Part shown: positions 1,429 to 32,091 of the stretch, in pieces
How positions within the stretch are numbered: position 1 is the first letter of the stretch
How the letters are laid out: every line of letters begins with the position of its first letter
Virus record (IMG/VR): IMGVR_UViG_3300041410_000014
Span: 1 to 41,902 of that record
Source: a virus
Length of the DNA: 41,902 nucleotides
Reading direction: 5' to 3' (one strand)
Program-made: the position numbers and the translations under genes
The notes under the pieces: model-generated
Told to the model about the DNA's origin: nothing
Database searches by the model: none
Seen by the model: the letters and a program-made list of their open reading frames with translations, nothing else

Positions 1429-2153
1429 GGCTGCTCCCCTTCCAGGGCCTCGGCCAGCTTCTTGACCCGCTCGGCCACGTCGCCGAGAAGGATCCACGCG
1501 CTGGTCCGCTTGCCCTCGAACACGTTCGGGACACCCTGCTGCCACGAGTTGTGGCCCACCGGGGTGGAATAGGTCCCGTCCGGGTCGCCGTCCGGGCCGG
1601 TGAGGACGGTAGGCCGGGTGAGTTCGTCCACCCGGGCATCGACGATCCGCGTCACCTCGGCGGAGATCCAGTTCTTGTCAGCGGGTGTCAGTGCCACCGG
1701 AAGTACCCCTGTCCTGATCTTCTGGGCCACGGCCCTCACGGCGATGGCGTTCCTGTTGATCTCGAAGTGCATGTCGTCGGGGCGGCCCGAGTAGTCGCCT
1801 CCCCATCGGACCACGCCGTCCAGGTCTTTCAGGATCGCCCGGATGCGTTCCTGATCCGCCTCGCTGTAGGTGTCGCGCCTGCCCATCGGGTGAGCAGGCG
1901 CGTTGTAGTCGATCGCCGTCCCCGAGGCGTGGTTGCTGATCGTCTGGGACCCCTCGATCTTCTTGACGAACCACCCCCAGCAACCACCCCGGTCGATCGG
2001 CTCCACCTCGTCGTCCAGGCGCTCGATCAGGTAGGTGAACACCGTGTCCACGTCACCCTTGAGCCACCCGTTCGGGAACTCGACCCCCCGGACCGCGCGA
2101 TCCACCACCGCGCTCTGGCCGACCACGGGCCAGCCATTCTGTGATGTCGCCAT
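1425..2153 (-). CDS. endolysin, M15-type L,D/D,D-peptidase
   Basis: 242-residue peptidoglycan peptidase of the VanY/M15 family. The zinc site is visible as SNHASGTAIDYN (His75, Asp82) and DDMHFEI (His129), the HxxxxxxD...H pattern of the family. The catalytic domain occupies about residues 1-150; the remaining ~90 residues probably bind the wall. It would cleave peptide cross-links of the host cell wall at lysis. The ATG has GGAAGGGAG upstream and a CTG-TAAGGT -10 element just before that, so lysis genes may have their own promoter. The stop overlaps the holin start by four bases. No signal peptide is seen, consistent with holin-dependent release. Confidence 0.88.
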   Translation of the reverse strand: MATSQNGWPVVGQSAVVDRAVRGVEFPNGWLKGDVDTVFTYLIERLDDEVEPIDRGGCWGWFVKKIEGSQTISNHASGTAIDYNAPAHPMGRRDTYSEADQERIRAILKDLDGVVRWGGDYSGRPDDMHFEINRNAIAVRAVAQKIRTGVLPVALTPADKNWISAEVTRIVDARVDELTRPTVLTGPDGDPDGTYSTPVGHNSWQQGVPNVFEGKRTSAWILLGDVAERVKKLAEALEGEQP

Positions 2154-2169
2154 CCGTCACTCCCTTCCA

Positions 2170-2175
2170 ACCTTA
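2170..2175 (-). promoter_or_regulatory. -10 element upstream of endolysin
   Basis: On the minus strand CTG-TAAGGT matches the -10 consensus of this phage, about 17 bases before the endolysin ATG. The -35 (GGTCAC at 17-base spacing) is poor, so it may be weak or activator dependent. Confidence 0.4.
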
Positions 2176-2184
2176 CAGTAACAG

Positions 2185-2370
2185 CTACCGGCGTGACCTC
2201 CGAGTCCTAGCGGCACGGCGTGCCATCCGGGATCGCTGAGCATGTGTGACCCCCGCATTCGCGATCCGGGCCGCCTTCTCCTTGCTGGCCCCCTTACGCC
2301 GCAGAGCCTTGTAAACCCGCTGACGGCTCTTCGCGACGTAACCACGTCTTCCCCCGGCGTCCGACACCAT
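2185..2370 (-). CDS. small Arg/Lys-rich phage protein
   Basis: 61 residues, strongly basic, with the core VAKSRQRVYKALRRKG followed by an Ala/Arg-rich tail that ends in RSRR. Short proteins of this pattern occur in many actinophages near lysis genes, with no established function. The ATG at 2370 is preceded by AGGAGG at eight bases. It could bind nucleic acid through its basic helices; that is inference from charge. It lies downstream of a terminator hairpin (2420-2442) and before the endolysin. Confidence 0.7.
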   Translation of the reverse strand: MVSDAGGRRGYVAKSRQRVYKALRRKGASKEKAARIANAGVTHAQRSRMARRAARTRRSRR

Positions 2371-2419
2371 GGTCACCACCTCCTGCCTCCATGATCTACC
2401 CGGGCCGAGACGGCAGAAA

Positions 2420-2442
2420 GCCCCTCAGCACCAGCTGAGGGG
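2420..2442 (-). terminator. hairpin terminator after XRE gene
   Basis: Minus-strand stem GCCCCTCAG/CTGAGGGGC with a six-base loop, followed by TTTCTG, lies just past the stop codon of the 2458-2709 gene. Confidence 0.7.
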
Positions 2443-2443
2443 C

Positions 2444-2461
2444 GTGACTCTGAAGTGTCAA
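2444..2461. promoter_or_regulatory. 18-bp inverted-repeat site 1
   Basis: GTGAC-TCTGAAGT-GTCAA. It overlaps the stop codon of the XRE gene and precedes its terminator, a stoperator-like position. Confidence 0.55.
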
Positions 2462-2709
2462 TCCTTCTCGGGGAACATCGGCTCCAGCGTGCCGTCCAGG
2501 GCGGCCAACCACTGGACCAGGGTGCCGAAGTTGGGCATCGACGTGTTGTTCTCCAGCACGGCCACGAAGTCCTGAGACCGGCCCATCCGCTCGGACAACT
2601 GGACCTGAGTAAGCCCCATCTTCATCCGGCGCTGTTTCATCTGTGTCCGGAACACCTCCCACCGGATGACGACCCAGTCCGGCACCTCGTACCGGGACCG
2701 ATCGGCCAT
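2458..2709 (-). CDS. XRE-family DNA-binding protein
   Basis: 83 residues with a Cro/CI-type helix-turn-helix: helices around MKMGLTQVQLSERMG and QDFVAVLENN, with the typical recognition-helix pattern ending at about residue 56. It would bind DNA as a dimer and regulate transcription. Its ATG overlaps the preceding stop as TAATG, so it is translated as the fourth gene of a coupled accessory cluster (3951 to 2458). Its own 3' end carries one of the 18-bp inverted repeats, making it one candidate for the protein that reads them; the HTH proteins at 22010 and 36524 are alternatives. Too small to carry a cleavable repressor domain. Confidence 0.85.
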   Translation of the reverse strand: MADRSRYEVPDWVVIRWEVFRTQMKQRRMKMGLTQVQLSERMGRSQDFVAVLENNTSMPNFGTLVQWLAALDGTLEPMFPEKD

Positions 2710-3104
2710 TACGAGCGGACCCGGACAGCCAGGGTGAAACCCCGGGCCTCCAGTCCCTCCAGCATGACGCGAGCCCGTCGGTGGATCGGGCCATCCTCGC
2801 TCTGGGTCTCGTACAGTGCCTCGCTGAGCGCTTTCTTGCCGCCGGTGTGGTCGGCCTCCACCAGTTGATCCATGCCTATCATCCGGGCGAACCAGTCAGC
2901 GGCCGTGCCGACACCGGTACCTCCACGCGGACCGGTGTACTTCTCCCCGATGGCCGCGATGATCGCCCGGTCCAGCGACGGGTAGTACTCACGGATCCTG
3001 GGAGTCTCATCGTTCACCTTCTCGAACCCGTACGACGGCTTGCCGTGGTCCCACACCTCCCAGAACGTCCAGTCCCCGAGCCGGGCCAGCAACATACGCC
3101 TCAT
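2709..3104 (-). CDS. phage protein, unknown function
   Basis: 131 residues, mixed alpha/beta composition, with aromatic-rich N-terminus (LGDWTFWEVWDHGKPSYGF) and a helical middle (AADWFARMIGMDQLVEA). No catalytic motif, membrane segment or known fold is recognised. The ATG at 3104 overlaps the upstream stop as ATGA, with GAGGAGG seven bases before it; its own stop overlaps the XRE start. This places it in a tightly coupled four-gene cluster that starts from the promoter at 3959-3987. Confidence 0.72.
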   Translation of the reverse strand: MRRMLLARLGDWTFWEVWDHGKPSYGFEKVNDETPRIREYYPSLDRAIIAAIGEKYTGPRGGTGVGTAADWFARMIGMDQLVEADHTGGKKALSEALYETQSEDGPIHRRARVMLEGLEARGFTLAVRVRS

Positions 3105-3541
3105 CGCTTGTCCTCCTCTGCCTGACCGGTCTCCGGGAGGGGAAACTCCAGCAGGCCCAGCTCCCGGGCCGCGTCGTTGATCATGTTGCGGATATCGCCC
3201 GGGGTGAATGAGCGCCAGCACTCCTCACCCCGGTTCTCGTCCCGATGACCCAGCGCCTCGTGGTTCTCCCGGCCGCCCCTGATCCAGTCGTCCAGCACCG
3301 TCCAGACGATGGCCAGCGCCTGGCTCTTGTCGGCCTGCCGCCCCAGGTATCCCGAGGCGCTTGGAGTGCCGACCACCTTGGGATACGACTCGCACACCAT
3401 CTCGCCCGCCGGTCCGTGGCACGAGGCCTTGTGCTGGTGCCCCGGGATCAATGCCCGAGGCAGTTGCCTTGGGATATCCCGCTCCCGGACCAGAGCGTCC
3501 CTCATTTCCTGGAGCGTGTTGATCATCGTTTCCCTGTCCAT
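3101..3541 (-). CDS. phage protein, unknown function
   Basis: 146 residues beginning MDRETMINTLQEMRD. It contains several His and Cys (GHQHKASCHG, CESY, CWRSF), possibly a metal site, and a C-terminal helix ending EEDKR. No family is recognised. The ATG at 3541 overlaps the preceding stop as TGATG, which decides the start over the in-frame GTG three bases upstream. Second gene of the accessory cluster. Confidence 0.72.
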   Translation of the reverse strand: MDRETMINTLQEMRDALVRERDIPRQLPRALIPGHQHKASCHGPAGEMVCESYPKVVGTPSASGYLGRQADKSQALAIVWTVLDDWIRGGRENHEALGHRDENRGEECWRSFTPGDIRNMINDAARELGLLEFPLPETGQAEEDKR

Positions 3542-3951
3542 CACGACCCCTCCCCATCTTTCAGACCAGCGCTGATGATGTCGGCCAGCTCGACCTCACG
3601 GTCGCGCCACAGAGAATGAGACTCGATGGTGATCCCCTGCTCCCGGAGGAATCCAAAGGCCCAGCGCCGGGTTTCGTCCCACTCGAACTGTTCGATAGTG
3701 GCGAACGAGGCGTTACTCCCGGAGTACGGGGTGTCCTCTCTCTGGGTGTCCCGGCGCATCCGCCACTCGATGATCTTCTCGGTGGCAGACAAGGTCGCCC
3801 ACACCCGGGCAGCCTTGACCACCACGGCCGGGATGGTGCGGTCCTCGGGATCACGCCGCCGCATGTCGTTAGGCGACCGGTAGACGATCACCTTCTGTCC
3901 CGGCTTCAGCTCCCCCAGCTCAGGCCGGGGTCCGTATCTCGTTGCGCTCAT
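3541..3951 (-). CDS. phage protein with beta-barrel-like N-terminus
   Basis: 136 residues. The N-terminal part (LKPGQKVIVYRSPNDMR, then TIPAVVVKAARVWATLS) reads like a small SH3- or Tudor-like barrel; the rest is helical and charged. Function unknown. It is the first gene after the promoter at 3959-3987: the -10 box TAAGGT ends seven bases before the ATG and no Shine-Dalgarno sequence fits between, so the mRNA is predicted to be leaderless. Translation of the next three genes appears coupled to it. Confidence 0.72.
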   Translation of the reverse strand: MSATRYGPRPELGELKPGQKVIVYRSPNDMRRRDPEDRTIPAVVVKAARVWATLSATEKIIEWRMRRDTQREDTPYSGSNASFATIEQFEWDETRRWAFGFLREQGITIESHSLWRDREVELADIISAGLKDGEGS

Positions 3952-3958
3952 ACCGACT

Positions 3959-3987
3959 ACCTTACAGCCTTGACGGCAAGGTGTCTA
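3959..3987 (-). promoter_or_regulatory. promoter with overlapping inverted repeat (leaderless)
   Basis: TAGACA-N17-TAAGGT on the minus strand, with CTG before the -10. The -35 starts inside the terminase stop codon TAG. The 18-mer at 3970-3987 is a near-match to the inverted repeat (TTGAC-N8-GTCTA), so a bound protein would occlude the -35. Drives 3951-2458. Confidence 0.7.
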
Positions 3988-5457
3988 CCGGGATCCGAGT
4001 GGGCTCATGCTGGTGCTGGGCATGGTGCCCTGGGGGAGGACGAACGTGCCGCTTCCGGCCCGGTCCGCCCACATGGCCATGGCCACCGCGTCACCCCGGT
4101 CGGGACTCCGGCCGAGCCGTTCCATCACCTTGTCCTTGGGCTCCACCTGGATCCGGGGCGGTACGCCGCTGGTGATGGTCCACTTCGGCGTGGTCAGGTC
4201 CGAGATCATCAGGTCGTCCGGGGGGAGCATGAGCACCGGGTCATAGGCCGGATCCAGCAGCTCACGGAGGTGGTAGTACGCCGCGCTCCGGATGTTGGTG
4301 AACCCGTATTTGCCGGACCGGTCGCGCACCAGGGCCTTACCGGCTCCCACGTACGCGATCGCCTTGATGTCCAGCTCACGCGCCCGGTCGTAGACTCCGG
4401 CACCCACCCCGATCACGTCGATGATCGGCCGCTCATCGAGCCCCTGGAGCATCGACACCGTGCTCATCGTGTCCCGGCGCCGGTGGCCCTCCAGCCAGAG
4501 AGCAGGCCCGTCCCGGTGCGCCAGGACCGACTCGTCACCACCCCGGCCGACGTCCACCCCGACCCAGAGTGGACCGCCTTGTCCCGGGCGTCCCGCCGTG
4601 TCCCAGACGTGCCACCGTTCGATGGCCGCTTCCAGCCACGCCAGCGGGATCACCGCGTCCTCGTCACCGGCGTGGAACAGTCCGAGCACGCGGTTGTGAT
4701 AGACCGCGCTGTCCTCCCCCCATTGGAGCTTGCGCTGTTCGGCCCAGGTCCGGGAGATCCGGCCCGCCTCGATCGCCTCCTCCAGCGAGACGCTGCGAGT
4801 CCACCAGTCTTCATAACCGGGGGCGCGCCGGTGGATGTCGTAGAACCTGCCGGAAGGTGCTCCCGGCGTACTCATGGCGAACGCGTACGCGTTGTCGGCG
4901 GTCTCAGGACCGGCGTTGGAGAACGCACCCTCGATGGAGTCCCAGGTCCCAGGGGGGACGATCTTTGCCTCGTCAAGCAAGTACAGCAGTTCCTCGGCGT
5001 GCGCACCCTCGATGCGCTCCGGCTGGTTGCTGGCTACCGCCGTGGCCGCCCCGTGGTACAGCTTGAGCCGGAGGTCCATCAGCTCCTTGCCGGGCTTGAA
5101 CGGAGCGCGGCCCAGGGTCTCGAAGTCGATCCGGTGCGCCCACTTGTGGATCTCCGGCCACAGGTAGACCTCCAGGTGCCGCCAGGCGGACGCCGTGGTG
5201 ATGATCTTCCAGTCTCGGCCCATCAAGTCCCGGGTGGTCGCGAACCAGTTGACCAGCGTGGCACCCATGAACGACTTGCCCAGGCCGTGCGGTCCCTTGA
5301 CGGCCACCCGGCGGCGACGGGGGAGAGCGTCCAACACCTCGCCCTGGTAACCAGCCAGATTGACCCGCATGCAGTCGCGCGCCCAGGCCACCGGCGAGTC
5401 CCTCCACCGGTCCAGCTTGCTCCGGCTGAGCACCTTGGCCGCCAGGTCGATCCTCAC
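3985..5457 (-). CDS. terL: terminase large subunit
   Basis: 490-residue packaging ATPase-nuclease. Walker A GPHGLGKS at 55-62, Walker B LLYLLDEAK at 157-165 with catalytic Glu163, a coupling-type stretch AFAMSTPG near 192-199, and the RNase H-like nuclease domain beginning GVDVGRGGDE (Asp302) with late acidic residues in SPDRGDAVAMA. It pumps DNA into the prohead and cuts the concatemer. The start is GTG at 5457, overlapping the stop of a 31-residue gene as GTGA; the longer in-frame extension reads through that small gene and is rejected. The gene ends exactly where the next promoter begins. Confidence 0.93.
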   Translation of the reverse strand: MRIDLAAKVLSRSKLDRWRDSPVAWARDCMRVNLAGYQGEVLDALPRRRRVAVKGPHGLGKSFMGATLVNWFATTRDLMGRDWKIITTASAWRHLEVYLWPEIHKWAHRIDFETLGRAPFKPGKELMDLRLKLYHGAATAVASNQPERIEGAHAEELLYLLDEAKIVPPGTWDSIEGAFSNAGPETADNAYAFAMSTPGAPSGRFYDIHRRAPGYEDWWTRSVSLEEAIEAGRISRTWAEQRKLQWGEDSAVYHNRVLGLFHAGDEDAVIPLAWLEAAIERWHVWDTAGRPGQGGPLWVGVDVGRGGDESVLAHRDGPALWLEGHRRRDTMSTVSMLQGLDERPIIDVIGVGAGVYDRARELDIKAIAYVGAGKALVRDRSGKYGFTNIRSAAYYHLRELLDPAYDPVLMLPPDDLMISDLTTPKWTITSGVPPRIQVEPKDKVMERLGRSPDRGDAVAMAMWADRAGSGTFVLPQGTMPSTSMSPLGSR

Positions 5458-5549
5458 TTCATCACGTCCCGGAAGTACCAGACTAGCCACACATACACGG
5501 CTACCGCCCCTATCACCGCACCACACAACATGGCGCCCACGATCTTCAT
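5454..5549 (-). CDS. 31-residue single-span membrane microprotein
   Basis: Encodes MKIVGAMLCGAVIGAVAV followed by YVWLVWYFRDVMK: one continuous hydrophobic helix with a positively charged end. The ATG at 5549 follows GGGGAGGAC; the start overlaps the previous stop as ATGA and the stop overlaps the terminase GTG as GTGA, so it is coupled on both sides. That double coupling and the ribosome site are the evidence for a real gene. The product would insert in the cytoplasmic membrane. A role in membrane association of packaging, or simply a translational coupler, is speculation. Confidence 0.7.
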   Translation of the reverse strand: MKIVGAMLCGAVIGAVAVYVWLVWYFRDVMK

Positions 5550-5737
5550 CGGTACGTCCTCCCCATGATCCGGGCGAACTCCGCCACCCGGGCCGCCACG
5601 TCCTCGCGCTGCCGACGCAGCGTCAACCGGCGTGCCGCGCTGTCAGCGGCCTTGGCCGATCGCCCTGGCCGCCAGTGTTCACACCCCTCGGTGGCCGGGA
5701 CCAGGGCACGGCACGCCCCACACGGACGCCGGATCAC
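5546..5737 (-). CDS. 63-residue Cys-containing protein
   Basis: Begins VIRRPCGACRALVPATEG and has CxxC plus a later CEHW, a possible zinc ribbon, followed by a basic helical segment (RRLTLRRQREDVAARV). GTG at 5737 overlaps the preceding terminase small-subunit stop as GTGA; its stop overlaps the next ATG. It could be a DNA-binding accessory of packaging; no family is recognised. Longer in-frame upstream sequence lies antiphase within the terminase small subunit and is not protein-like. Confidence 0.7.
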   Translation of the reverse strand: MIRRPCGACRALVPATEGCEHWRPGRSAKAADSAARRLTLRRQREDVAARVAEFARIMGRTYR

Positions 5738-6444
5738 GGTTGCTTGCCGTCGGTTATCGCGGCCATACCCTCCATGTCGATCGACCCGAGGTGCGTCTGG
5801 AGCAGGAGCGGAACGAGGGCCTGCTGATCCTCGGTGAGTCCTAGCGCGTCCAGCATGGTGGCGATCCGGCTTGCGACGATGTCCCCCCAGTGCTCGGCCA
5901 GCGACGTCAGCCGGTTGGAGATCCCCATGTCGTGCGCCGTCTTGGCGAACTTGACGACCCGGTCCCGCTCGGCCGCCTCCAGTGTCACCAGGGCCCGGAC
6001 CTCTTCGGTCTGGACGTAAACGATGCCGTCCTTGCCGCCCATCCCGTACCGGTGCCCGATCAGGCCGGAAGCGTCCGGAGCATCGTCCTCCCGGGGGTCT
6101 CCGGCCGTATCGCCGTCGACGACCACCTGACGACGGAGCAGATCGGAGTACATGCCGAGACGCAGATAGGTCATCTGGAGTACGGCCAGCACGGCGGCCC
6201 CGGCGTCGATCTGGCTGGCCGGTCCGTCCGGGTTCCACGCCGTGATGCGCGCCTCGCCCTGGGCCTTGGTCACCTCCCGGCGGAAGCCGCTGTGCATGCG
6301 GCACGCGTTGGCTCCCCGGATCGCCAGCTGATGACACGGTCCCCGGCCCTTGGTCCGGTTCTTCGTGCATTCGAGCCGGTTGTGATCTTCACACCACCGG
6401 GCGTGTCCGGGGTTGAACTCCCGGTTGGTGTACGTCTTGGCCAT
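5734..6444 (-). CDS. probable terminase small subunit
   Basis: 236 residues. The N-terminus has a Cys/His cluster (CEDH...CTKNRTKGRGPCHQ...CRMHSGF) resembling the zinc-finger and HGAP/CRMH motif seen in small terminase or HNH-adjacent phage proteins; the remainder is helical with acidic stretches. It would recognise phage DNA and recruit the large subunit. Position directly upstream of terL, in a four-gene coupled run, is the main evidence. The ATG lies six bases after a TAGCAT -10-like box with no Shine-Dalgarno sequence, suggesting a leaderless message. A different role for the Cys/His domain cannot be excluded. Confidence 0.68.
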   Translation of the reverse strand: MAKTYTNREFNPGHARWCEDHNRLECTKNRTKGRGPCHQLAIRGANACRMHSGFRREVTKAQGEARITAWNPDGPASQIDAGAAVLAVLQMTYLRLGMYSDLLRRQVVVDGDTAGDPREDDAPDASGLIGHRYGMGGKDGIVYVQTEEVRALVTLEAAERDRVVKFAKTAHDMGISNRLTSLAEHWGDIVASRIATMLDALGLTEDQQALVPLLLQTHLGSIDMEGMAAITDGKQP

Positions 6445-6507
6445 ACCGTCATGCTATCCGGTGACCGGGTGACATCTCACACCTGGCCGCCATGCCTGGA
6501 AAGCAAC

Positions 6508-6550
6508 GAGCCCCAGCTCTCGGACGGGGAGGTCAAGAGGTGGGGCTCGT
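6508..6550 (-). terminator. long hairpin in 6445-6603 spacer
   Basis: Arms CGAGCCCCA/TGGGGCTCG plus an inner CTCT/AGAG pairing form a long stem. On the minus strand it is followed by TTGCTTTCC, so it probably ends transcription of the 6604-6870 gene. No gene is seen in the rest of this 159-base spacer. Confidence 0.6.
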
Positions 6551-6603
6551 GCTGGACGGCGAGGGCAACATCCCGGGAAACCCCGGCCGCATACGTCAGG
6601 CTA

Positions 6604-6870
6604 CTACCTGCCTTGCAGGTGTGCACTCCCGCTGACCACCGGCGCCGGGGTCATCGGCACGGCCGGGGCAGGGGTACCGCACGACGCGACCACCAGGCCG
6701 GTGATGCCGAGGGTGGCCAGCATGCCGCGCCAGGTCACCGTGGACCGGGCCCGGTGACGGCCGCGCCCGTTCACCCACGGGGGCCGCTCGTCCGTGGCAC
6801 TGTGGCGCGCGAAGCGCTCCCAGGGGTCCGGGGTTTCCTCCCCGTGGCTCCCCGTCTGAAACTCGTTCAC
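6604..6870 (-). CDS. small single-span membrane protein
   Basis: 88 residues: a ~50-residue hydrophilic, Arg-rich N-terminus, then one hydrophobic segment (MLATLGITGLVVASCG) and a Pro/Ala-rich tail (TPAPAVPMTPAPVV). The Cys after LVVAS looks like a lipobox but is too far from the N-terminus for a normal lipoprotein signal; a type II single-span protein is more likely. GTG at 6870 has AAGGGA at a suitable distance, preferred over an upstream ATG at 6891 without one. Transcribed from the promoter at 6909-6938. Function unknown. Confidence 0.62.
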   Translation of the reverse strand: MNEFQTGSHGEETPDPWERFARHSATDERPPWVNGRGRHRARSTVTWRGMLATLGITGLVVASCGTPAPAVPMTPAPVVSGSAHLQGR

Positions 6871-7400: not shown

Positions 7401-10400
7401 CTAGCCCTTCTCGTAACACTTGCTCCAGTCCGTGCCGGGACGGCTCACGTCCGCCAGGATGGGCACCCCGCGCCACTCGAACGAGAGCGCCTCGACCACG
7501 ATCCGGCCGATCTCTTCGGACATATCAGACGGAACGGACAAAACGATCTCATCGTGGACCTGGGCACGAAGCATCGGCAGGATCTCGGCGGGGAGCCGGA
7601 GCAGACCTTCCATCATCAGGTCCCGGGCCGCGCCCTGGCCCATCAACGCCGGACCCTGAGTGTGGGCGCGCTGAGGGTCGGGCCGCATCTTGCGGCCGAA
7701 ACCGTTGTCCAGCAGTGCGCCGGAGGACGCTAGCGCGCGGACCTCCTCACGCCACTCGACCAGCCGGGGGAACCGGTCGCGCATCGACTGGTCGAACTTC
7801 GAGACGATCGCCGGATCAATGTCGTTGTCCCGGGAGATCCGCTGTAGCGACTCCCCGTAGTTCCACCCGTGGCCGATGGCCTTGGCCTCCTCCCGGTAGT
7901 CCTTGCTGCCGAACAGAGCGATGGCCAGCTCGGAGTGTGGATCCTCGGACCTCAGCATCTCGATGTATGCCTGGTCCTGGCTCAGCCCGGCGACAGCCCG
8001 CATGTCGACCTGGGAGAGGTCGGCGCTGATAATCACCTGGCCCGGGTCGGGGAGCAGGACGGCCCGCTCCACGTGACGACCGCCACGCTTGCCCAGCACG
8101 GTGAGGCCCGGGGAGGTGACCGACCAGCGACCGGTGGCCTGGTCGAATCCGACCTTGGGGTGGACCCGGCCGTCCGGCATGGTGTGGTTCGCGATCGTCT
8201 CGTAGACCGAGCGGGCCGACACGATCCGGTAGACCGCCGTACACAGCTTCCGGAGGTCCGGCGAGTTCTGGCCGTACTCCCGGCCGTAGAACCGCATGGC
8301 GTCCGCCGAAAGCTGAAGATCCTTCGCCTTCTCTGTGCGCCATAGCGCCTTCTCCGGCACGCCCAGGGCCAGCAGCGCCTCCCCGATCGCCTGCTTACCG
8401 GCCTTGGTCGCCAGCGGGCTTTTGTACGGCTCACCCTTGGGGGTGGTCAGTGGCACCCCGAACCGGGCGGCCAGATAGGTGATGGCCTGCTCCTTGGTCC
8501 GCTGGACCTCGGTGACCCGTTCGGCCAACAGGGCCTGATCCACCAGGAACCCGTTGTGCGTGATCTGGGCGGCGATCGCGGCTACCCGGTGCTCCCGCTT
8601 CACGTACTCCGGCACCGTGCCGTCCAGATCCTCCAGGAGGCGCGCGTGGAGTGCCCGGCTCAACTTCACGTCCTGGACCATGTACTCCTGGAACAGTTTG
8701 GCGTCAGCCGCCCGGACCGGATCCGGGTCGGTCGTGTCGATCGGGATCTCACCCCACCCGCCGTACTTGCGGTCCAGGCCGTGGTGGATCTTGCTGCCCA
8801 GGCCGTACCTGGCACCTAGGGTGTCTAGGTCGTACTTGCGGGTTGCGTCCACACCCTTGTCCCGGGCCATCGGCGGATCCAGGTACCGGGCACCGATCAG
8901 CGCGTCGAACACCCGGCCGTCAGCCGTCATGTCGTGGACCGCCTCCATGGTCAGCACACCGGCGCGGACCAGGGCGGGGAGGTCGAAAGCCATGATGTTG
9001 TGGCCGGTGATTGTCTGGCCTTGTGTGATCTCGTGAGCCACGTACTGGGCCACGCGCTTGGTCGTGTGCGCGTCCACGTCCTGATCGTCCCGGGCGGTCG
9101 CACCGATCCGGACGTAGGTCTCCGGGTCGGCCCGGTAGAGGTCACCGGCGTCGCCGGTCTCCAGGTCGAACGTGACCACCTGAATGTCTGTCTTCACAGG
9201 CTCGACTTCCCCAGGTGAGGGGTTGTCCACAGGGTTGTCCACAACCTGTGGACTGTCCACGGTTGTGTCCACCATCCCGGCCACCAGCGCCTCCAGCTCA
9301 TCCGTGATGCTCGGGGGCTGGTCGGTCTCCCTGCCGGTCAGGTCGGACTCGTCCGCGCCACGTGCGTCCCCGTGCTCGTTGTGCGGCGCCGGGTCCGGCT
9401 CGGGGATTGACATGTCAGTGTCATCCCAGGGCGGGGGCTCGGCCACCGGCGGCGCCGGGGGGAGGTCACCGTCCATGAACACCCGGTACACACTTACGTG
9501 GCCGTGGGCCGATCCGACACGCTCCAGCCAGAAGTCCCCATACCTCCGGCCCCGGATACGCCCATACGCCTCCCCGAGGGACTTGCCGTAGGTCTTCTCG
9601 CTCGGGTCGTCCAGCTTCGGGGGAGCGAGATAGGAGGCCGGATCGGTCTGTGCCTTCTCCTTGACCTGAGCCGTCCGGAACGAGCGATCGGCGAACTGGT
9701 CACGCAGCCAACCCAGGTGGCCGATCCAGTACTGGGAGTCGAAGTCGGATTCGGAGCGCCAGACCTTGAGATTGCCCAGGAAGTTAGGCAGACCGGCGGT
9801 CTCCACGATGCCGCCCACCATCCGCTCCCAGACCTCGAACGAGCCGAAGCTGACCCCCCGCTTGGGGTACGGGCAACCAGCCGCGTACCACGCCCGAACC
9901 AGGGTGAGGATCGCGGTCAGTAACTCCTTGCGGTTCTTGCGAGTCCAGCTCAGCAGGTCGAGACCGGACTGGCCCGGGTGCCGGAAGGAGGAGGCGGCCC
10001 GGTCCTGGGGGTTGGCGTACTTGGGCCTCAGCGCGATCCGGTACACCCGGCGGCTCAGGTCCCCCTTGACCTGGACGTTGTTGCCGAGCGACATCCACGT
10101 GACGCGGTTCGGGAAGTTGGCCATGGTGCTGACACCCAAGATCCGGTCCTGCCACGTCTCAGCGGTCAGCGCCTGGGCCAGGGCGGCACCATCCAGGATC
10201 GGCGCCTCGTCGAAAACGAAGAACTCGGCGCCGGTACGGAAGGCCGATGTGATCTGCTTCCGCAACTCGTCCGGCTCGTTGACCCAATTCATCGGCTGAG
10301 CCGCGTGGCCGGTGAACACGGTGAGGATCGAGTCGGCCAACAGGTTCTTACCGACACCCATCTGCAGGCCGTCGATCACGGCCAGCGGGGCACGCGGCAT

Positions 10401-11699
10401 CATGCCCCGGATGGTGGGGGTCACCACCAGACCCAGCAAGTTGGCCCGGTCCGCGTCGCTGTCCACCGGGAAGTCCCCCAGCCACTCCTCCATGATCAGC
10501 TTCCGTGCGGCAGTCACCTGCTCCGGCGTAGGACTCTCCGGCACTTCTATACCGGCGAACACCTCGTCAGGCATCAGGATGGACCGGGTCGCCTCGTCAT
10601 ACCCGGGCTCAGTGACGATCGTCCCGTCGGGGCGGACGAACGGTGCGTGCGCCAACCGGTCTAGTCGTGCGAACCGGTCCGCCCGGCTCATGGTTGCGGC
10701 CATGGTGCCGGAGTCCGGCCACGCGAACGATCTGGTGGGACCCTGGGCACCGTCGTTCTCGTTCATCGTGATCACGGTCATCTGCACGATGTCGTGAAAC
10801 GACCCCCGGTCCACAGGGCTCATCGTGTCGTTCTGCCGACGCGAGATCACCCCGCCGTGGTTGAACAACTGGGTGGCGTCCCATCGCTTGAGCAGTGCGT
10901 CCGTGAGCTTGTTGATCACGTCGTACCGGTCCTCGTTGACGATGAGGACCTCCCGGCCGTTGCTCCCCGTCGGCATCGGTCCCCCCCTCTTGCGTGCCTT
11001 GGGCGCGCGGTCAGCAGGCTTGGGTTTGGCCCCCTCGATCAAGCGGTTCATGAACACGGCCCGGCGGTTGTCCGGGCGACTCGCCAGGATGTCATCGAGG
11101 CCGGACTTGCCGCCCCCAGGGAGGCGGCCAAACAACACCTTCTCGGCACCCTCCATGGCGAGTGCCTCAGTCAGGCCGACCCCGGCGCCGTAGACGTCCG
11201 GGTTGGTGGCCGCGTCCGCATCCAGGACGATGATCACCTTCTTGCCGTCCAGAACGGCCAGGTCGGGGATTGGCACCCCGTCGATCTGCCACATCCGGCA
11301 TCCGGCGATCGAGTAGACCGACACTCCGGCGGGTGCGTAGCTGGCTCCCGCCAACCCCTGCTTGGTGCCCTCGATGATCAGCGCGGTGTCCGCGCCGTCC
11401 ACCTCCCGCAAGGCCCACAGGACCGGCGTCGCTCCCCGGCCGAACACATATTTGCGAGGCTTGCCGCTGTTGTCCACGGTCGGATTGTCCGGCCGCGCCT
11501 GGAACATGACCCGGCCGTCAGGGGAGGTCCAGGGGAAGAGGATGGCGGGGAAGTTGGCGAAGTTGACCCAGTTGTCGTCGCCGGTCGCCTCCATGTCGGC
11601 GCGGCTGTTCACGGTGCGCACACCCAGCTTCTCGGCCAGGTCGGGGTCAACCGCCTGGGAGATCAGGTATGCCCGGTGCCCGGTGCTGAGGTTGGTCAC
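7401..11699 (-). CDS. primase-helicase-DNA polymerase A fusion
   Basis: 1,432 residues combining three replication activities in one chain. (1) Residues ~1-240: Toprim-type primase-like domain, LIIEGTKQG (Glu110) and VLDADA (Asp160/Asp162). (2) ~250-740: AAA+/SF3-like helicase, Walker A GLQMGVGKN at 444-452 (Asn in place of Ser/Thr), Walker B FFVFDE at 493-498, sensor-like LGNN at 538-541 and SRR at 549-551. (3) After a Pro/Asp-rich linker (744-840): proofreading exonuclease FDLET 844-848, HNIMAFD 900-906, YMVQD 1006-1010, then family A polymerase with motif A ADLSQVDMR, motif B from Arg1269 to Tyr1281, motif C VHDE 1381-1384. The residue aligning with E. coli Pol I Phe762 is His1277. GTG at 11699 follows AGGAGGG by seven to eight bases. 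It should copy the phage genome with few host factors. Confidence 0.93.
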   Translation of the reverse strand: MTNLSTGHRAYLISQAVDPDLAEKLGVRTVNSRADMEATGDDNWVNFANFPAILFPWTSPDGRVMFQARPDNPTVDNSGKPRKYVFGRGATPVLWALREVDGADTALIIEGTKQGLAGASYAPAGVSVYSIAGCRMWQIDGVPIPDLAVLDGKKVIIVLDADAATNPDVYGAGVGLTEALAMEGAEKVLFGRLPGGGKSGLDDILASRPDNRRAVFMNRLIEGAKPKPADRAPKARKRGGPMPTGSNGREVLIVNEDRYDVINKLTDALLKRWDATQLFNHGGVISRRQNDTMSPVDRGSFHDIVQMTVITMNENDGAQGPTRSFAWPDSGTMAATMSRADRFARLDRLAHAPFVRPDGTIVTEPGYDEATRSILMPDEVFAGIEVPESPTPEQVTAARKLIMEEWLGDFPVDSDADRANLLGLVVTPTIRGMMPRAPLAVIDGLQMGVGKNLLADSILTVFTGHAAQPMNWVNEPDELRKQITSAFRTGAEFFVFDEAPILDGAALAQALTAETWQDRILGVSTMANFPNRVTWMSLGNNVQVKGDLSRRVYRIALRPKYANPQDRAASSFRHPGQSGLDLLSWTRKNRKELLTAILTLVRAWYAAGCPYPKRGVSFGSFEVWERMVGGIVETAGLPNFLGNLKVWRSESDFDSQYWIGHLGWLRDQFADRSFRTAQVKEKAQTDPASYLAPPKLDDPSEKTYGKSLGEAYGRIRGRRYGDFWLERVGSAHGHVSVYRVFMDGDLPPAPPVAEPPPWDDTDMSIPEPDPAPHNEHGDARGADESDLTGRETDQPPSITDELEALVAGMVDTTVDSPQVVDNPVDNPSPGEVEPVKTDIQVVTFDLETGDAGDLYRADPETYVRIGATARDDQDVDAHTTKRVAQYVAHEITQGQTITGHNIMAFDLPALVRAGVLTMEAVHDMTADGRVFDALIGARYLDPPMARDKGVDATRKYDLDTLGARYGLGSKIHHGLDRKYGGWGEIPIDTTDPDPVRAADAKLFQEYMVQDVKLSRALHARLLEDLDGTVPEYVKREHRVAAIAAQITHNGFLVDQALLAERVTEVQRTKEQAITYLAARFGVPLTTPKGEPYKSPLATKAGKQAIGEALLALGVPEKALWRTEKAKDLQLSADAMRFYGREYGQNSPDLRKLCTAVYRIVSARSVYETIANHTMPDGRVHPKVGFDQATGRWSVTSPGLTVLGKRGGRHVERAVLLPDPGQVIISADLSQVDMRAVAGLSQDQAYIEMLRSEDPHSELAIALFGSKDYREEAKAIGHGWNYGESLQRISRDNDIDPAIVSKFDQSMRDRFPRLVEWREEVRALASSGALLDNGFGRKMRPDPQRAHTQGPALMGQGAARDLMMEGLLRLPAEILPMLRAQVHDEIVLSVPSDMSEEIGRIVVEALSFEWRGVPILADVSRPGTDWSKCYEKG
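9223..9261. other. cluster of DnaA-box-like sequences
   Basis: TTGTCCACA at 9223-9231 and 9235-9243, an inverted GTCCACA at 9247-9253 and CTGTCCACG at 9253-9261, plus another GTCCAC at about 9267. TTGTCCACA is the preferred Streptomyces DnaA box. It lies within the linker-coding part of the polymerase gene, where it encodes VDNP-like repeats, so it may be only a peptide repeat. Confidence 0.4.
9407..9424. promoter_or_regulatory. 18-bp inverted-repeat site 4 (intragenic)
   Basis: TTGAC-ATGTCAGT-GTCAT, inside the linker-coding region of the polymerase fusion, 150 bases from the DnaA-box-like cluster. Confidence 0.45.
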
Positions 11700-11723
11700 G
11701 CTCGGTCCCTCCTGATGAAACAA

Positions 11724-11747
11724 CCGGGCCACCCGGAGGTGGCCCGG
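11724..11747 (-). terminator. hairpin terminator after coiled-coil gene
   Basis: Perfect 10-bp stem CCGGGCCACC/GGTGGCCCGG with a four-base loop followed by TTGTTT on the minus strand: a canonical intrinsic terminator. Confidence 0.82.
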
Positions 11748-11764
11748 TCCGTCGTTGTCCAGTG

Positions 11765-12697: not shown

Positions 12698-12727
12698 ACC
12701 TTACAGCCTTGCCTACCTGGTCGGCAA
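12698..12727 (-). promoter_or_regulatory. promoter for coiled-coil gene
   Basis: TTGCCG-N18-TAAGGT, with GGCTG before the -10; the -35 lies in the 3' end of the helicase gene. TTGCC...GGCAA flanks form a loose inverted repeat. Confidence 0.65.
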
Positions 12728-14425
12728 GAGGCCCATCTTCTTCAGCGCGTGACGGCCGGTGATCCGGGTGGACAGATCAGATGCCTCGCCCATCGTCTTG
12801 ACTAGGTGGAGCTTGCTCTCCGGGAAACCCTGGCGCAACAGGCGTGACTTCTGGGCCTCGCTGGCCCGGCCCTTGCGCCATCGCGCGGTCCGTTCGACCA
12901 GCCTCTGAAACGCTTTGGCCCGGTCCTCCCCGATGCCCATGGCCCAGTCGGCCGGGACCTCGTCCTGGATGACCGTCAACCGGTTGCCCTCATACGCGGC
13001 CAGCTTCCACGTGTCGGTCCCGAGCGGCGCCATCACCACGACCTCCTTACCGGCCCCGAGACAGTACGCGCCGCCGGGGAGGGGGAGCCACGCCAGCCGG
13101 GACGTGCCGAACACATCGACCTTGCCGCCACCCTGGGCGCGGCAGTTCACGTGCCGGGTGCCACCGGCCGTGGTGACGGACACCGGCAGATACCGCTTGC
13201 AGAGCTTGCACCGGTGCCAGTCCGGGAATCCGCAGTCGGCGGACTTGCACGTCGGGCATTGCATCCTCTCGGACTCGTCGCCCGGCTTCTTGCGCGGATC
13301 GTCCATGTCCAGCCCGAGGTCCACCAGGCCCACGAGTTCATGACGGTTGCTGGCGCCCACGATGTCCAGGACCATCAGATCGTTCTTGCCCGGGTACAGA
13401 CGTGTACCCCGGCCGACCATCTGCACGTAGAGCCCGTGGAACTTGGTCGGCCGGGCCACGACCACACACGAGATCGAGGGTTCGTCGAACCCTTCGGTGA
13501 GCACGGCGCAGTTGACCACGACCTGGGTCTCTCCGGTCTTGAGACGCCGGAGGATGGCGCGCCGGAGTTCGGTCTCGGTGTTGCCGTCCACCGCCTCGGC
13601 CGGGATGCCGCGCTTGCACAGCTCGGCCGCCAGGTGGTGTGCCGTGGCGATCGTCGGGGTGAACGCCACCCCCTTGCGGTCCCGTGCGTGTTCCGCGTAC
13701 GCGTCGGCGATCTGCTCGATGGCTCCCGCGTCTTCCATGGCCTTACCCAGGTCGCCGCCGGAGAGATCCCCGTCCGACCCCTTGCGGACCTTGCTCATGT
13801 CCATCTTGGTCTCGACGACCACGGCCGGGAGGATCGGGACGAGGTAACCCCCCTCCTCGTCCTTCTTGCGGTCGCCGTAGATGGCCTCCCGGATTGACAT
13901 GTACGAGACAACCCGCTCCCACACGCCCAAGGTCTTGTTGTCCCGCTCCGGGGTGGCCGTGAACCCGACGGTCAGCGGACCGTATTCCGACCAGGAGCCC
14001 ATCCCCTGGAGAACCTTGGTCCAGGTCGGCGCTGGTGCGTGATGAGCCTCGTCAACGATCAAGGTCCCGAACGGGGAGCGGCGACCACTCTCGATCAGCT
14101 CAGCCAGACGCTTGTCCCGGCTCACGGTCTGAACCGAGGCCACGACCACATCCGCGTCGAGGTCGTTGCGGTCCGCCTTGACGATGCCGGTGCTCAGCTC
14201 CGGCGCGATCCTCTGGATCTTGTCGACCGTTTGAGCCGCCAACTCCTCCCGGTGCACGAGAACCAGGGAGCGGCCCCGGTCGGCCCGCTCCGCGATCGCG
14301 TGCGAGAAGATCACGGTCTTGCCGGTACCGGTCGGGTAGACCAGTAGAGGACGACGCAGACCCTCACGCTCGGCCTGCTCGATCGCGTCCAGGGCGCGCC
14401 GCTGGTACGGGCGAACGCTGAGCAT
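12713..14425 (-). CDS. SF2 DEAD/DEAH-box helicase
   Basis: 570 residues. RecA-like domain 1: Walker A YPTGTGKT (30-37), VHREEL motif Ia region, DEAH box VDEAHH (124-129), motif III FTATP (155-159). Domain 2 ends with motif VI QMVGRGTR (335-342). A Cys-rich insert follows (CPTCKSADC and CKLCKRY, about 390-412), probably a zinc finger, and a ~150-residue C-terminal domain. It resembles the UvrB/type III restriction/XPB-like translocases common in phages, likely unwinding or remodelling DNA for replication or recombination. The ATG overlaps the upstream stop as TGATG. The C-terminal region is atypical compared with short phage SF2 helicases. Confidence 0.9.
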   Translation of the reverse strand: MLSVRPYQRRALDAIEQAEREGLRRPLLVYPTGTGKTVIFSHAIAERADRGRSLVLVHREELAAQTVDKIQRIAPELSTGIVKADRNDLDADVVVASVQTVSRDKRLAELIESGRRSPFGTLIVDEAHHAPAPTWTKVLQGMGSWSEYGPLTVGFTATPERDNKTLGVWERVVSYMSIREAIYGDRKKDEEGGYLVPILPAVVVETKMDMSKVRKGSDGDLSGGDLGKAMEDAGAIEQIADAYAEHARDRKGVAFTPTIATAHHLAAELCKRGIPAEAVDGNTETELRRAILRRLKTGETQVVVNCAVLTEGFDEPSISCVVVARPTKFHGLYVQMVGRGTRLYPGKNDLMVLDIVGASNRHELVGLVDLGLDMDDPRKKPGDESERMQCPTCKSADCGFPDWHRCKLCKRYLPVSVTTAGGTRHVNCRAQGGGKVDVFGTSRLAWLPLPGGAYCLGAGKEVVVMAPLGTDTWKLAAYEGNRLTVIQDEVPADWAMGIGEDRAKAFQRLVERTARWRKGRASEAQKSRLLRQGFPESKLHLVKTMGEASDLSTRITGRHALKKMGLLPTR

Positions 14426-16426: not shown

Positions 16427-16444
16427 TTGACGCTTACGCGTCAG
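16427..16444. promoter_or_regulatory. 18-bp inverted-repeat site 6
   Basis: TTGAC-GCTTACGC-GTCAG, overlapping the stop codon of the YqaJ gene and immediately upstream of the promoter at 16396-16424. Confidence 0.55.
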
Positions 16445-17609
16445 GAAGCTTGTACTGCTTCGGCACCCGGATGGTCATCCGCCGGTACCGGCTGCTGACG
16501 GTAACAGCCTCGGCTACCTCCGGGTAATCGCGCTTCAACGCTTCCACGTCGATGCGCTTGGTAGAAACCTCGGGGTAGCCCACGATCTTCTCGTCACCCA
16601 GGTACGCCGCGCCAGCGTCCCCGGTCCAGGACCGGAATTCGTTCTTGATCGCGGTGAACTCGGCCTCGGCCTCCTCGTGCCGCTTCTTGGCCCGCTGGTA
16701 GTCCTTAATCCACTCCTCCGCCAGGTCGGGCAGATCGGTGGAAGGAGACAGCACGGTCGGGTGCTGCTCCTTCAACAGGCCCTCGGTGATCGGGTGCCGG
16801 AAATCATGGAGCGGGATTTCATCCCCCAGGATGTTGTCTTCCCAGAAGTCGTCAGCCGTTTCCATCATCTCGCCGAACCAGTCGGCATCGAAGTGGACCT
16901 CTACCGTGAAGAACTGGCGCGACCGGTCGATGTGGAAGCACCCGAGGTAACCCACAGGGAGACCGAGAATGCCCATCTGCCACTGAATCTGGGCCTGATA
17001 CCCCAGGGGAGCCGAACCTGTCCCCTTGCCACCGGGCCGGATGGTGCCGGACTCCCAGTGCTCGTCATCCCCCGCCGTCTTGCACTCGATGACGGCCTCG
17101 GCCTTCCAAGACCGAGGCTTGCACCCGAACCGGTCCGGCGTGACCCGGATGTGCTCCTTGCCGTTCATCGCCCAGAGCCCACCCCCGAATCGGGAGACCA
17201 GGCCGATCTCCTCGGCCGTCTTCTGGGCTACCACGTCTTCCAGCCGGTGACCCCACTCGATCGGCGCACCGGTCAGCTCCACGTCCGGCTCGGTCCGTTT
17301 CTTCTTGGACCAGATCGACATGGCCGTCTCGTGCTCGTTCACCCCGATCAGGGCGCCGACCTCAGACCCGCCGATGCCCTCCTTGCGTGCGGCGAGCCAC
17401 GCCGCGCGCCCGGCACACTCGGGGAGGATGAGACGACTCGGCGCCTTGCGGGGGCTGGCGAACCGGTGCGCCGGGTGTGGGCACCCGAGCTTGCCGCCCG
17501 AGCGGGCCAGGTACATCTCTACCTGGCCCCTCAGGTACGCCTTCTCCTGCTCAGTCTTCCTCTCGGCCATCTCGGCCTCGGCCGGGAAATAGGCCATGGG
17601 CTCAGTCAT
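16434..17609 (-). CDS. YqaJ-family viral exonuclease/recombinase
   Basis: 391 residues. Lambda-exonuclease-like PD-(D/E)XK fold: GIGGSEVGALIG (79-90), a helical Glu in IEWGHRLED (~118), catalytic VTPDRF (Asp159) and VIECKTA (Glu175, Lys177), then the Gln of YQAQIQWQM near 205. Residues ~300-345 are a charged helical region. It would resect double-stranded DNA ends 5' to 3' for single-strand annealing recombination. No RecT-like annealing partner is recognised next to it; the OB-like protein at 15608 is the nearest candidate. ATG at 17609 overlaps the preceding stop as ATGA. Confidence 0.9.
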   Translation of the reverse strand: MTEPMAYFPAEAEMAERKTEQEKAYLRGQVEMYLARSGGKLGCPHPAHRFASPRKAPSRLILPECAGRAAWLAARKEGIGGSEVGALIGVNEHETAMSIWSKKKRTEPDVELTGAPIEWGHRLEDVVAQKTAEEIGLVSRFGGGLWAMNGKEHIRVTPDRFGCKPRSWKAEAVIECKTAGDDEHWESGTIRPGGKGTGSAPLGYQAQIQWQMGILGLPVGYLGCFHIDRSRQFFTVEVHFDADWFGEMMETADDFWEDNILGDEIPLHDFRHPITEGLLKEQHPTVLSPSTDLPDLAEEWIKDYQRAKKRHEEAEAEFTAIKNEFRSWTGDAGAAYLGDEKIVGYPEVSTKRIDVEALKRDYPEVAEAVTVSSRYRRMTIRVPKQYKLPDA

Positions 17610-17824
17610 CGCGTGGTGTCCCCCGGCTCGACCGGCGTGAGGTTGATCGACGTGGGCCACTCGATCGTGAGGGTGATCGACGTGGGCCACTCCCCGTTGA
17701 TCTTCTCTAGGTGCTCCTTGTTGATGTAGACCTGGCCGACGGGCAGGGACTTCAGGTTGCTCACGGCGTAGACCACCGTGTTCTCGGTCTCCCGATCGAA
17801 CGGAAGGATGACTCGGATAGCCAC
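17606..17824 (-). CDS. small beta-rich protein with internal duplication
   Basis: 72 residues beginning VAIRVILPFDRETENT. Its C-terminal part contains a duplicated peptide, EWPTSITLTI and EWPTSINLTP, from two 19-base copies 30 bases apart (17644-17662 and 17674-17692). Function unknown. GTG at 17824 follows the previous stop by two bases, with GGGGGA upstream; its stop overlaps the YqaJ start. The first ~55 residues look like a small barrel or sheet domain, perhaps an accessory of the exonuclease given the coupling. Confidence 0.65.
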   Translation of the reverse strand: MAIRVILPFDRETENTVVYAVSNLKSLPVGQVYINKEHLEKINGEWPTSITLTIEWPTSINLTPVEPGDTTR

Positions 17825-18243: not shown

Positions 18244-18753
18244 CTAAACCTCCATCTTGATCTTGGACAGTTGGTTCCTGTGAACCTCGGGGAGTTTGAA
18301 CACCGGACGGCCGACGAAGTCATTGATCATGACCCACAACCACCAAGCGTCACACTCGTTGTCGTTCGTGAACTCCACGCCGCCACGCTTGAAAGCGGCC
18401 AGCGCCATGTCCGTCTTGCTGGCGCTCCCGGACCCGGTGGCGTACTTCTTGAGACAGGTCGGCGGGACTGTGCCGTACGGGATCTCCGCCTGGATCAGAC
18501 CCTCCCGGACAGCACCGTGCACCATCCCGGTGGTCCCGGCGCTGTACGACTTCTCCAGGTATCCCTCTATCAGGACCAGTTCAGGTGCACCGAAAAGACC
18601 TAGAACCTGGTGCCGGATATAGGTCAGGCGCCGGTCACCCTTGGCGGCTCCAGGCTTGATCAGGTGCGTGCACGCGGTCCCATCGACCCCGGTGTGGGCC
18701 AGACCCGGCGCCGTGATGGACAGGTCCAGGCCCGCGACCTTCCTGACACTCAC
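18244..18753 (-). CDS. RuvC-like Holliday-junction nuclease
   Basis: 169 residues with the RNase H-like order of acidic residues: VAGLDLSITAPG (Asp10), LVLIEGY (Glu63), and TNDNECDAWWLWVM (Asp131/Asp135). A conserved-type loop LKKYATGSGSASK (~101-113) sits between, as in phage RuvC enzymes. It should cut branched recombination or replication intermediates before packaging. Start is GTG at 18753, overlapping the upstream stop as GTGA; no Shine-Dalgarno sequence, so translation is probably coupled. A longer upstream frame lies antiphase in the previous gene and is rejected. Confidence 0.87.
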   Translation of the reverse strand: MSVRKVAGLDLSITAPGLAHTGVDGTACTHLIKPGAAKGDRRLTYIRHQVLGLFGAPELVLIEGYLEKSYSAGTTGMVHGAVREGLIQAEIPYGTVPPTCLKKYATGSGSASKTDMALAAFKRGGVEFTNDNECDAWWLWVMINDFVGRPVFKLPEVHRNQLSKIKMEV

Positions 18754-19205
18754 TTGTGCACCGGGCACATCGGGTGCGGCCCGAGTTCCGGGGCACGAAA
18801 CCCGCACTTGCATTTGCTCAGATCGACCTTTCGAACAGGGCAGTCCAGCAGGCATGGCCGGTCGTCGTCCTGGTCGTCGCACTCCTTGGAGTGAGGCGGC
18901 AGGTATCGGTCCATCGCGGCGACATGACCACCGGTGTCCGAGTTGTGGAACGGGTCCCGGACGTGCCGCATGGCCTCGTCCACGACCCGGCTCATCTCCC
19001 GGAACGTGGCGACCAGGTTCAGCCCCATCAGCAGGACGGACACCTTAGACACCGGCATCTCGACGTGCCTCTCCTCCCCCTCATGCATGAGGAGCAGGCA
19101 CGCGCGGCTAGCGCCATCCGGGATCTCGTAGCTGGCCTGGAGCATCCTCTGGGCCTGCTCCCACTGGTCCGGAGTCAGTTCGTCGATCTCTACCTTGAGC
19201 CGCAT
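18750..19205 (-). CDS. phage protein with Cys/His-rich C-terminus
   Basis: 151 residues starting MRLKVEIDELTPDQWEQA. Residues ~1-95 are alpha/beta; the C-terminal part has HSKECDDQDDD, CLLDCPVRK, CKCGF and HPMCPVHK, enough Cys/His for one or two zinc sites. No family recognised. GGAGGG precedes the ATG, and the gene is first after the promoter at 19233-19262. Start of the recombination sub-operon (19205 to 16434). Confidence 0.72.
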   Translation of the reverse strand: MRLKVEIDELTPDQWEQAQRMLQASYEIPDGASRACLLLMHEGEERHVEMPVSKVSVLLMGLNLVATFREMSRVVDEAMRHVRDPFHNSDTGGHVAAMDRYLPPHSKECDDQDDDRPCLLDCPVRKVDLSKCKCGFRAPELGPHPMCPVHK

Positions 19206-23536: not shown

Positions 23537-24277
23537 CTACCTTTCCGGTGCGAAGCGCCTGTGTAGCGAGACTACCTGCCGGTTCGCTGAAGGTCCCGAC
23601 CTCGGCCCCCGCGCACGTGTGTACGCAGGGTCACGAACCACCGGCCCACTCCAGGACAGCTCCAGCGCTGAGCCCTGATGATGTCTGACCGCGCGCCGAT
23701 CGGCCGCACGGTGTTTGGTGATGGACGCTACGGGCCGATGGTCCACCAGAGACGGCCAGGTGTACCAGACCTCGCCCCCCCGGCGCTTGGTCCATCCGGC
23801 AACCCTCATGTCGTCCGGCACCCGGTGCATGGTGTCGGCACGCACGATCATGTCCGGGATGAGCGCGACGGGGAGGCAGATGGCAACCCCCCACATCAAG
23901 CTCTGTGAAACCACGAACGAGGCTTGCCGCTGATCGGCCATCGCACCCATGGTCATCCACTTCCGGGGTGCGGCTCCCCCCCGGCCCAGGTACGGGCATA
24001 CCGTGGCGTCCATCGGGACATACTCCAACGCGCGCTCCAGCCCGGATAGGAAGTCCGGGCAGGGGAGCGCATCGTCCTGGATCAGGACGTGCCAGTCAGC
24101 CTCAGGGTCATGCAGCTGCCAAGCCCCACGAGCCACGCGCCAGACCCGGTCACCGTTGCCGGACGGCTTACCCTCCGGATCCCAGTGGACCGGCACCTCC
24201 CGGCCGAGCCGGTCCTGGAGATCGCTCACCAGGTCGACCCGGTCCGGGTGGGCCATCACCGAGACCGAGAGCCTCAC
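23537..24277 (-). CDS. glycosyltransferase-like protein
   Basis: 246 residues beginning with MRLSVSVMAHPDRVD, a GT-A type N-terminus, and containing WHVLIQDDALPCPDFL: the DD pair corresponds to the metal/nucleotide-sugar DxD motif of families such as GT25/GT2. A Trp-rich region follows. It would transfer a sugar to phage virion proteins, host surface or modified DNA. GTG overlaps the upstream stop as GTGA. Part of a cluster with two more glycosyltransferase domains. The C-terminal ~50 residues are basic and low complexity. Confidence 0.75.
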   Translation of the reverse strand: MRLSVSVMAHPDRVDLVSDLQDRLGREVPVHWDPEGKPSGNGDRVWRVARGAWQLHDPEADWHVLIQDDALPCPDFLSGLERALEYVPMDATVCPYLGRGGAAPRKWMTMGAMADQRQASFVVSQSLMWGVAICLPVALIPDMIVRADTMHRVPDDMRVAGWTKRRGGEVWYTWPSLVDHRPVASITKHRAADRRAVRHHQGSALELSWSGPVVRDPAYTRARGPRSGPSANRQVVSLHRRFAPER

Positions 24278-31947: not shown

Positions 31948-32091
31948 GACTGCATCCTTCCACATCCGGGGTTGCACAACCTTGCAGCCATGCGATAGCG
32001 TCGTGGTCAGAACGAAGGAAGGCCCCGGGGTTATCGTTCGCCCCATACAACGAGGTACCACCCGGGATTATCGTTGGTCCCGAGTTCATGA

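Follow-up and report, generated by a model that had tools for sequence, protein, structure and literature searches.

The window analysed here, the whole 41,902-base IMG/VR virus record IMGVR_UViG_3300041410_000014 (a metagenomic contig), carries on its minus strand a single gene that joins a Toprim module, a superfamily 3 (SF3) helicase, a linker, a 3'-5' exonuclease and a family A DNA polymerase (PolA) in one polypeptide (Table 1). Judging from sequence comparison and structure models, the gene product is probably a single-chain replicase with which the phage copies its own DNA, a reading to which we give a probability of about two in three. Sequence matches far beyond chance confirm that the intact multi-domain frame is real, namely those to the polymerase family PF00476 (E=5e-26), to the PHROGs family phrog_17 ('DNA polymerase', E=5e-159), and to Pas55 of the isolated Actinoplanes phage phiAsp2 (YP_024841.1), a colinear full-length homologue with 64.5% identity over 98% coverage. 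Further full-length colinear homologues, at 62-82% identity, are found in IMG/VR contigs. By these matches the protein is a member of the phiAsp2 Pas55/phrog_17 family, which is already present in databases as a polymerase.

An unbroken reading frame

The minus-strand frame is open, with no interruption, from an upstream GTG at 11768 down to the stop codon at 7401-7403. The preliminary description of this DNA had claimed a single unbroken frame of 1,432 residues, and this is borne out: all 1,432 codons are intact, and relatives likewise keep the frame continuous. The GTG at 11699 appears the better candidate for the true start because it follows a Shine-Dalgarno site and a terminator-like hairpin that lies between the upstream gene and the fused gene, and alignments of homologues also begin at about this position. 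A start at GTG 11768, giving 1,455 aa, was rejected on the same two signals. The phrog_17 match spans residues 26-1454 of that longer reading, or nearly the whole protein; all other residue numbers count from GTG 11699, and numbering from GTG 11768 adds 23.

Table 1. Predicted features of the fused gene and its surroundings (positions in the window)
Feature	Position	Strand	Remarks
Fused replicase gene (predicted), Toprim - SF3 helicase - linker - 3'-5' exonuclease - family A DNA polymerase	7401..11699	-	1,432 aa, GTG start
Family A polymerase domain, residues 1033-1432	7404..8603	-	PF00476; Klenow alignment; conservation
3'-5' exonuclease domain, residues 841-1032	8604..9179	-	DLE, HNxxxFD, YxxxD; AlphaFold2 model; Foldseek; conservation
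Flexible acidic/proline-rich linker, residues 748-840	9180..9458	-	Hypervariable among relatives, always in frame; predicted local distance difference test (pLDDT) <50 at model residues 747-770
SF3/D5-type AAA+ helicase module, residues 245-730	9510..10967	-	AlphaFold2 model; Foldseek against PDB; residue conservation
N-terminal Toprim module, residues 1-230	11010..11699	-	AlphaFold2 secondary structure; DUF3854/Toprim families in relatives; conservation
Shine-Dalgarno AGGAGG	11708..11713	-	8 nt ahead of GTG 11699
Perfect 11-bp hairpin, then TTGTTT, terminator-like	11723..11748	-	Between upstream gene and fused gene
Separate superfamily 2 (SF2; ResIII/DEAD) helicase gene	12713..14425	-	Same replication cluster
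RecE-like (YqaJ) exonuclease gene	16434..17690	-	Same replication cluster
RuvC-like Holliday junction resolvase gene	18244..18882	-	Same replication cluster

Domain assignments

The residues that the preliminary description had picked out for the Toprim, Walker A and B, sensor, arginine, exonuclease and polymerase A, B and C motifs are all present and are conserved in relatives, as judged in alignments of 45 and 38 rows, where the Walker B Asp, the sensor Asn, Arg551, the polymerase motif A Asp and the HDE are invariant. Structure prediction and hidden Markov model searches, named there as checks, back the modules with protein families (for the Toprim module, by way of relatives), AlphaFold models and residue conservation.

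The C-terminal half is predicted to be a family A DNA polymerase with DnaQ-type Exo I-III residues (Asp845, Glu847, Asp906, Tyr1006 and Asp1010) on a Klenow fold. Polymerase motifs A (DLSQVDMR), B (RxxxKAIGHGWNYG) and C (VHDE) supply Asp1227, Arg1269, Lys1273, Tyr1281, His1382, Asp1383 and Glu1384. The AlphaFold model of this half has a pLDDT of 91.8 and a predicted template modelling score (pTM) of 0.90, and its Foldseek matches are phage G20c Pol I, DpoZ, Klenow and T7 polymerase (E ~1e-21, template modelling score ~0.72 over the whole exonuclease-polymerase). A role as DpoZ, associated with 2-aminoadenine DNA, was rejected, as the NCBIfam DpoZ model scores 64 bits against a cut-off of 500. 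In a phmmer alignment to Klenow, His1277 (window 7869-7871) aligns with Phe762, and the steric-gate Glu710 is replaced by Asp1232 (E. coli numbering for Phe762 and Glu710). The combination of His at the 762 position and Asp at the steric gate is common to the fused family and to three further proteins (L090, L094 and L058, the first and last described below), and several PolAs from Streptomyces phages and mycobacterial prophages also have His at this position. No paper on His at position 762 was found in a literature search, and the available portions of a survey of phage PolA proteins give Phe, Tyr and Leu at this position with His unmentioned (PMC6302109). In one fused relative (L002), motif B reads KYRGSRRKPSVGWNYG in place of the family pattern, as by two compensating frameshifts, which is probably an assembly error.

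At the N-terminus, the AlphaFold2 model follows the beta-alpha order of a Toprim fold, with Glu110 ending strand 105-110 and the DxD motif (160-162) placed after strand 154-158. Among the 45 relatives, DUF3854 is matched by 28, Toprim_3 by three and Toprim by one, and DUF3854 scores above the Pfam cut-off in L042, L043, L058 and the protein of plasmid pS1D4-14.2. DUF3854, on which the literature search found no paper, is presumably a Toprim relative, in line with these residues. Fold, family matches and residues together argue for a Toprim (DUF3854) domain. A degenerate version, with the Glu and the first Asp substituted, is seen in a primase-helicase relative from Brevibacterium sp. RIT 803 (L060, 5866-8244).

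The central module carries a Walker A motif (GLQMGVGKN, 444-452), a Walker B motif (FVFDE, 494-498), a sensor Asn540 and Arg550/551 as the putative arginine finger. These residues and a D5-like AAA+ fold in the AlphaFold model of residues 1-777 (pLDDT 89.4) point to an SF3 helicase of the D5 type. The best Foldseek matches of the same model in the PDB are AsfvPrimPol, the C-terminal region of NrS-1, MPXV E5, SaPI5 and PriRep1 (E 1e-8 to 1e-5), SF3/D5-type primase-helicases; a PDB sequence search with the primase-helicase profile gave nothing useful.

Proposed function of the chain

In the proposed mechanism, the SF3 part would form a hexamer, because SF3 proteins of this type form hexamers, and the ring would unwind the phage DNA, while the Toprim part would prime the exposed strand; the polymerase, on its long flexible linker, would elongate these primers and proofread. 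With the three activities covalently linked, priming, unwinding and synthesis would stay together with no need for separate docking contacts. The near-complete replisome envisaged in the preliminary description stands at the level of domain architecture, and its primase activity, helicase activity and hexamer formation are predictions. If the whole chain is active, a single purified polypeptide might be able to make primers, unwind DNA and carry out proofreading synthesis, providing a minimal replisome for studies of helicase-polymerase coupling and possibly an enzyme for isothermal amplification.

Several observations weigh against this reading of the front half. The window's own Toprim and helicase parts have no direct Pfam match, the orientation of the domains within the model of residues 1-777 is uncertain (pTM 0.60), and residue 452, next to the Walker A Lys, is Asn instead of Ser or Thr, as it is in 37 of the 45 rows. 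The N-terminal module has neither CHC2-like cysteines nor a match to a zinc-binding family, and an HHalign comparison of the Toprim region with the DnaG catalytic core, although it brings both catalytic motifs into register, gives an E of 0.035, equal to that of the control and not significant. The missing zinc domain and the weak similarity to DnaG would suit a Toprim part that does not prime, leaving a helicase-polymerase primed by host DnaG or by recombination ends; the phage's RecE and RuvC genes could support recombination-primed synthesis. Such a division of labour seems somewhat unlikely, however, given that almost every relative possessing this region retains Glu110, Asp160 and Asp162, that DUF3854 modules precede D5/SF3 helicases in several contexts, and that D5-like helicases in multidomain proteins mostly occur fused to a primase of the AEP or DnaG type (PMC2579912).

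The linker and the fate of the chain

Among fused open reading frames (ORFs), the linker varies from 57 to 197 residues and is highly variable in sequence, and its differences peak at third codon positions in all eight relative pairs compared, a weaker bias than in the domains. Cys-containing insertions, possibly small zinc-binding knuckles, occur in the linkers of L001, L002, L004, L016, L026, L028 and L036 (13 Cys in L036) and are absent from the window.

A long, disordered and hypervariable linker would also suit a chain that is translated whole and then cut there into a primase-helicase and a polymerase, with fusion serving only to fix equal amounts. Related phages have separate-gene arrangements, and a precedent for cutting is Plasmodium PfPREX, which combines the activities of a primase, a helicase and a polymerase and is fragmented inside the organelle, its polymerase module parting from the primase-helicase (PMC7341739). 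Yet no conserved cleavage site is visible, because the linker sequence is unconserved, and the genes scanned included no recognisable phage protease, which makes cutting unlikely. With one intact chain still the preferred product, the polymerase half might additionally be made alone from an internal start, since in the window a GGAGG lies 5 nt ahead of an in-frame GTG at residue 806; but a Shine-Dalgarno-like site with an in-frame start recurs in the linkers of only 10 of 35 fused relatives, so that a conserved internal start is not supported and such production is very unlikely.

The possibility that an assembly or sequencing artefact joined two genes, or that a frameshift did so, is negligible and was rejected: although the record is a metagenomic virus contig, 35 distinct fused ORFs (the window, isolated phage phiAsp2 and about 33 other contigs, drawn from many samples) read through both halves without a change of frame, and over their 3,413 linker codons stops number 0 in frame 0 as against 63 in +1 and 126 in +2. 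By these comparisons the fusion is genuine.

Comparison with known systems

The closest counterpart is Pas55, which resembles the window protein in near-equal length, domain order and gene neighbourhood, is its best structure match in BFVD, and differs in sequence divergence only. The Pas55 record reads hypothetical or putative DNA polymerase, similar to Bxb1 gp41, and leaves the primase-helicase half unannotated; annotation would gain more widely, as current records say just 'DNA polymerase' or 'primase'. The three-part fusion claimed in the preliminary description holds in that the modules are collinear in one chain, but it is less exceptional than supposed, with Pas55 in GenBank and both PfPREX and a Pyrovirus polyprotein published. 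No paper describing a Toprim-SF3-exonuclease-PolA chain was found, in a literature coverage that was incomplete.

PfPREX, the apicoplast replication enzyme, compared here in architecture only, likewise has a single chain that includes a primase, a helicase, a 3'-5' exonuclease and a family A polymerase. Its helicase is of the T7 gp4/Twinkle-like, superfamily 4 (SF4) RecA type, whereas that of the window is SF3/D5 AAA+ by structure matches; PfPREX is moreover nuclear-encoded and cleaved, and the window gene is phage-encoded. The Pyrovirus (TOSV) PolA polyprotein (3173 PolA, 1,606 aa), compared by description, is a viral protein that attaches a helicase/primase-like region to a proofreading PolA; some species have PolA joined to a DUF927 helicase region, and in others the two are split (PMC7689252). 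It differs in its N-terminal part, which is DUF927 and not Toprim-DUF3854, and in its Aquificae hosts; DUF927 had no match in the window protein or its relatives.

In the Streptomyces phages phiSAJS1, Mischief19 and Xkcd426 (Woodruffvirus), a homologous Toprim region and a PolA lie adjacent and in the same order, but as two genes, which carry the annotations DNA primase and DNA polymerase I; the helicase of Mischief19, the only one of the three scanned, belongs to the D5_N/DUF5906 type. An SF3/D5 helicase and a polymerase also share one chain in Sputnik V13, of the TV-Pol family fused to D5 helicases (PMC2579912), and in the primase-polymerase-helicase of phage NrS-1; in these the polymerase is TV-Pol or AEP and stands ahead of the helicase, and neither a Toprim nor a Klenow-type exonuclease is present. 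Actinobacterial plasmid Prim-Pol and helicase proteins (pCM32; a Streptomyces sp. NBC_01335 plasmid; phrog_19930) have the same SF3-type helicase family, at 30-36% identity, but their primase is an AEP Prim-Pol and they have no PolA.

Relatives and evolutionary history

Searches of species genomes yielded no relative with a single-sequence query and six with an alignment query. A window-type primase-helicase without PolA in the same ORF is present in L042, L043, L047 and L048 and in Micromonospora, Blastococcus and Brevibacterium genomes. Three further fusions, each with a PolA of this kind, combine the modules differently. Contig L090 (IMGVR_UViG_3300036857_000341, 1764-6803) encodes a 1,680-aa chain of AEP Prim-Pol, DUF5906 SF3 helicase, exonuclease and PolA, a case that rests on one contig, as a search for its relatives returned only itself. 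Streptomyces plasmid pS1D4-14.2 (L160, NZ_CP041606.1, 1541-5881) encodes WP_181360814.1, annotated as a P4-family primase, in which DUF3854, D5_N, DUF5906 and PolA form a chain of 1,446 aa, and Knoellia sp. Soil729 (L058, 5779-9690) has a 1,304-aa fused chain with a window-type front half and a PolA without exonuclease.

Trees of the two halves were quick, and some of their branches are long. The PolA tree joins the pS1D4-14.2 protein to the separate-gene Kradal (SH-aLRT 96), so that fusion probably took place on more than one occasion. It places L090 within the Toprim-fused group (SH-aLRT 98-99), which would mean a swap of the front half, though a test that keeps the Toprim-fused rows together is borderline (p-AU 0.053). 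In the primase-helicase tree, the split L047 groups with the fused L040 (SH-aLRT 99), and the two halves therefore have partly separate histories.

What is new in these comparisons is one polymerase clade that appears with different primase-helicase halves (Toprim and SF3; Toprim and D5; AEP Prim-Pol and D5) or in separate neighbouring genes, and that carries His opposite E. coli Phe762. The primase-helicase half appears exchangeable, and fusion most likely began with the joining of neighbouring primase-helicase and polA genes, a pair that is still separate in Streptomyces phages. More tentatively, and at rather less than an even chance, actinobacterial phages, prophages and plasmids may share a modular class of one-chain replisomes, in which one polymerase clade (His 762, Asp steric gate) repeatedly captured different primase-helicases and DNA is replicated by the intact chain acting as one self-contained machine. 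Relatives with fused, split or swapped modules provide a natural experiment on what covalent linkage contributes.

Genome context

The fused gene lies in a replication cluster with an SF2 helicase, a RecE-like exonuclease and a RuvC-like resolvase (Table 1), and a TerL gene is also nearby. The SF2 helicase and RecE-like nuclease beside the fused gene resemble the pairing in Pyrovirus genomes of the PolA polyprotein with a DEAD helicase and nuclease gene (PMC7689252). Elsewhere on the minus strand, a cassette of glycosyltransferase, methyltransferase-type and glucosyltransferase genes (23537-26912) is shared with phiAsp2 (pas33-35), and two adjoining genes (29140-32061 and 32092-33534) both match the tail-protein family phrog_5795, which suggests a partial duplication.
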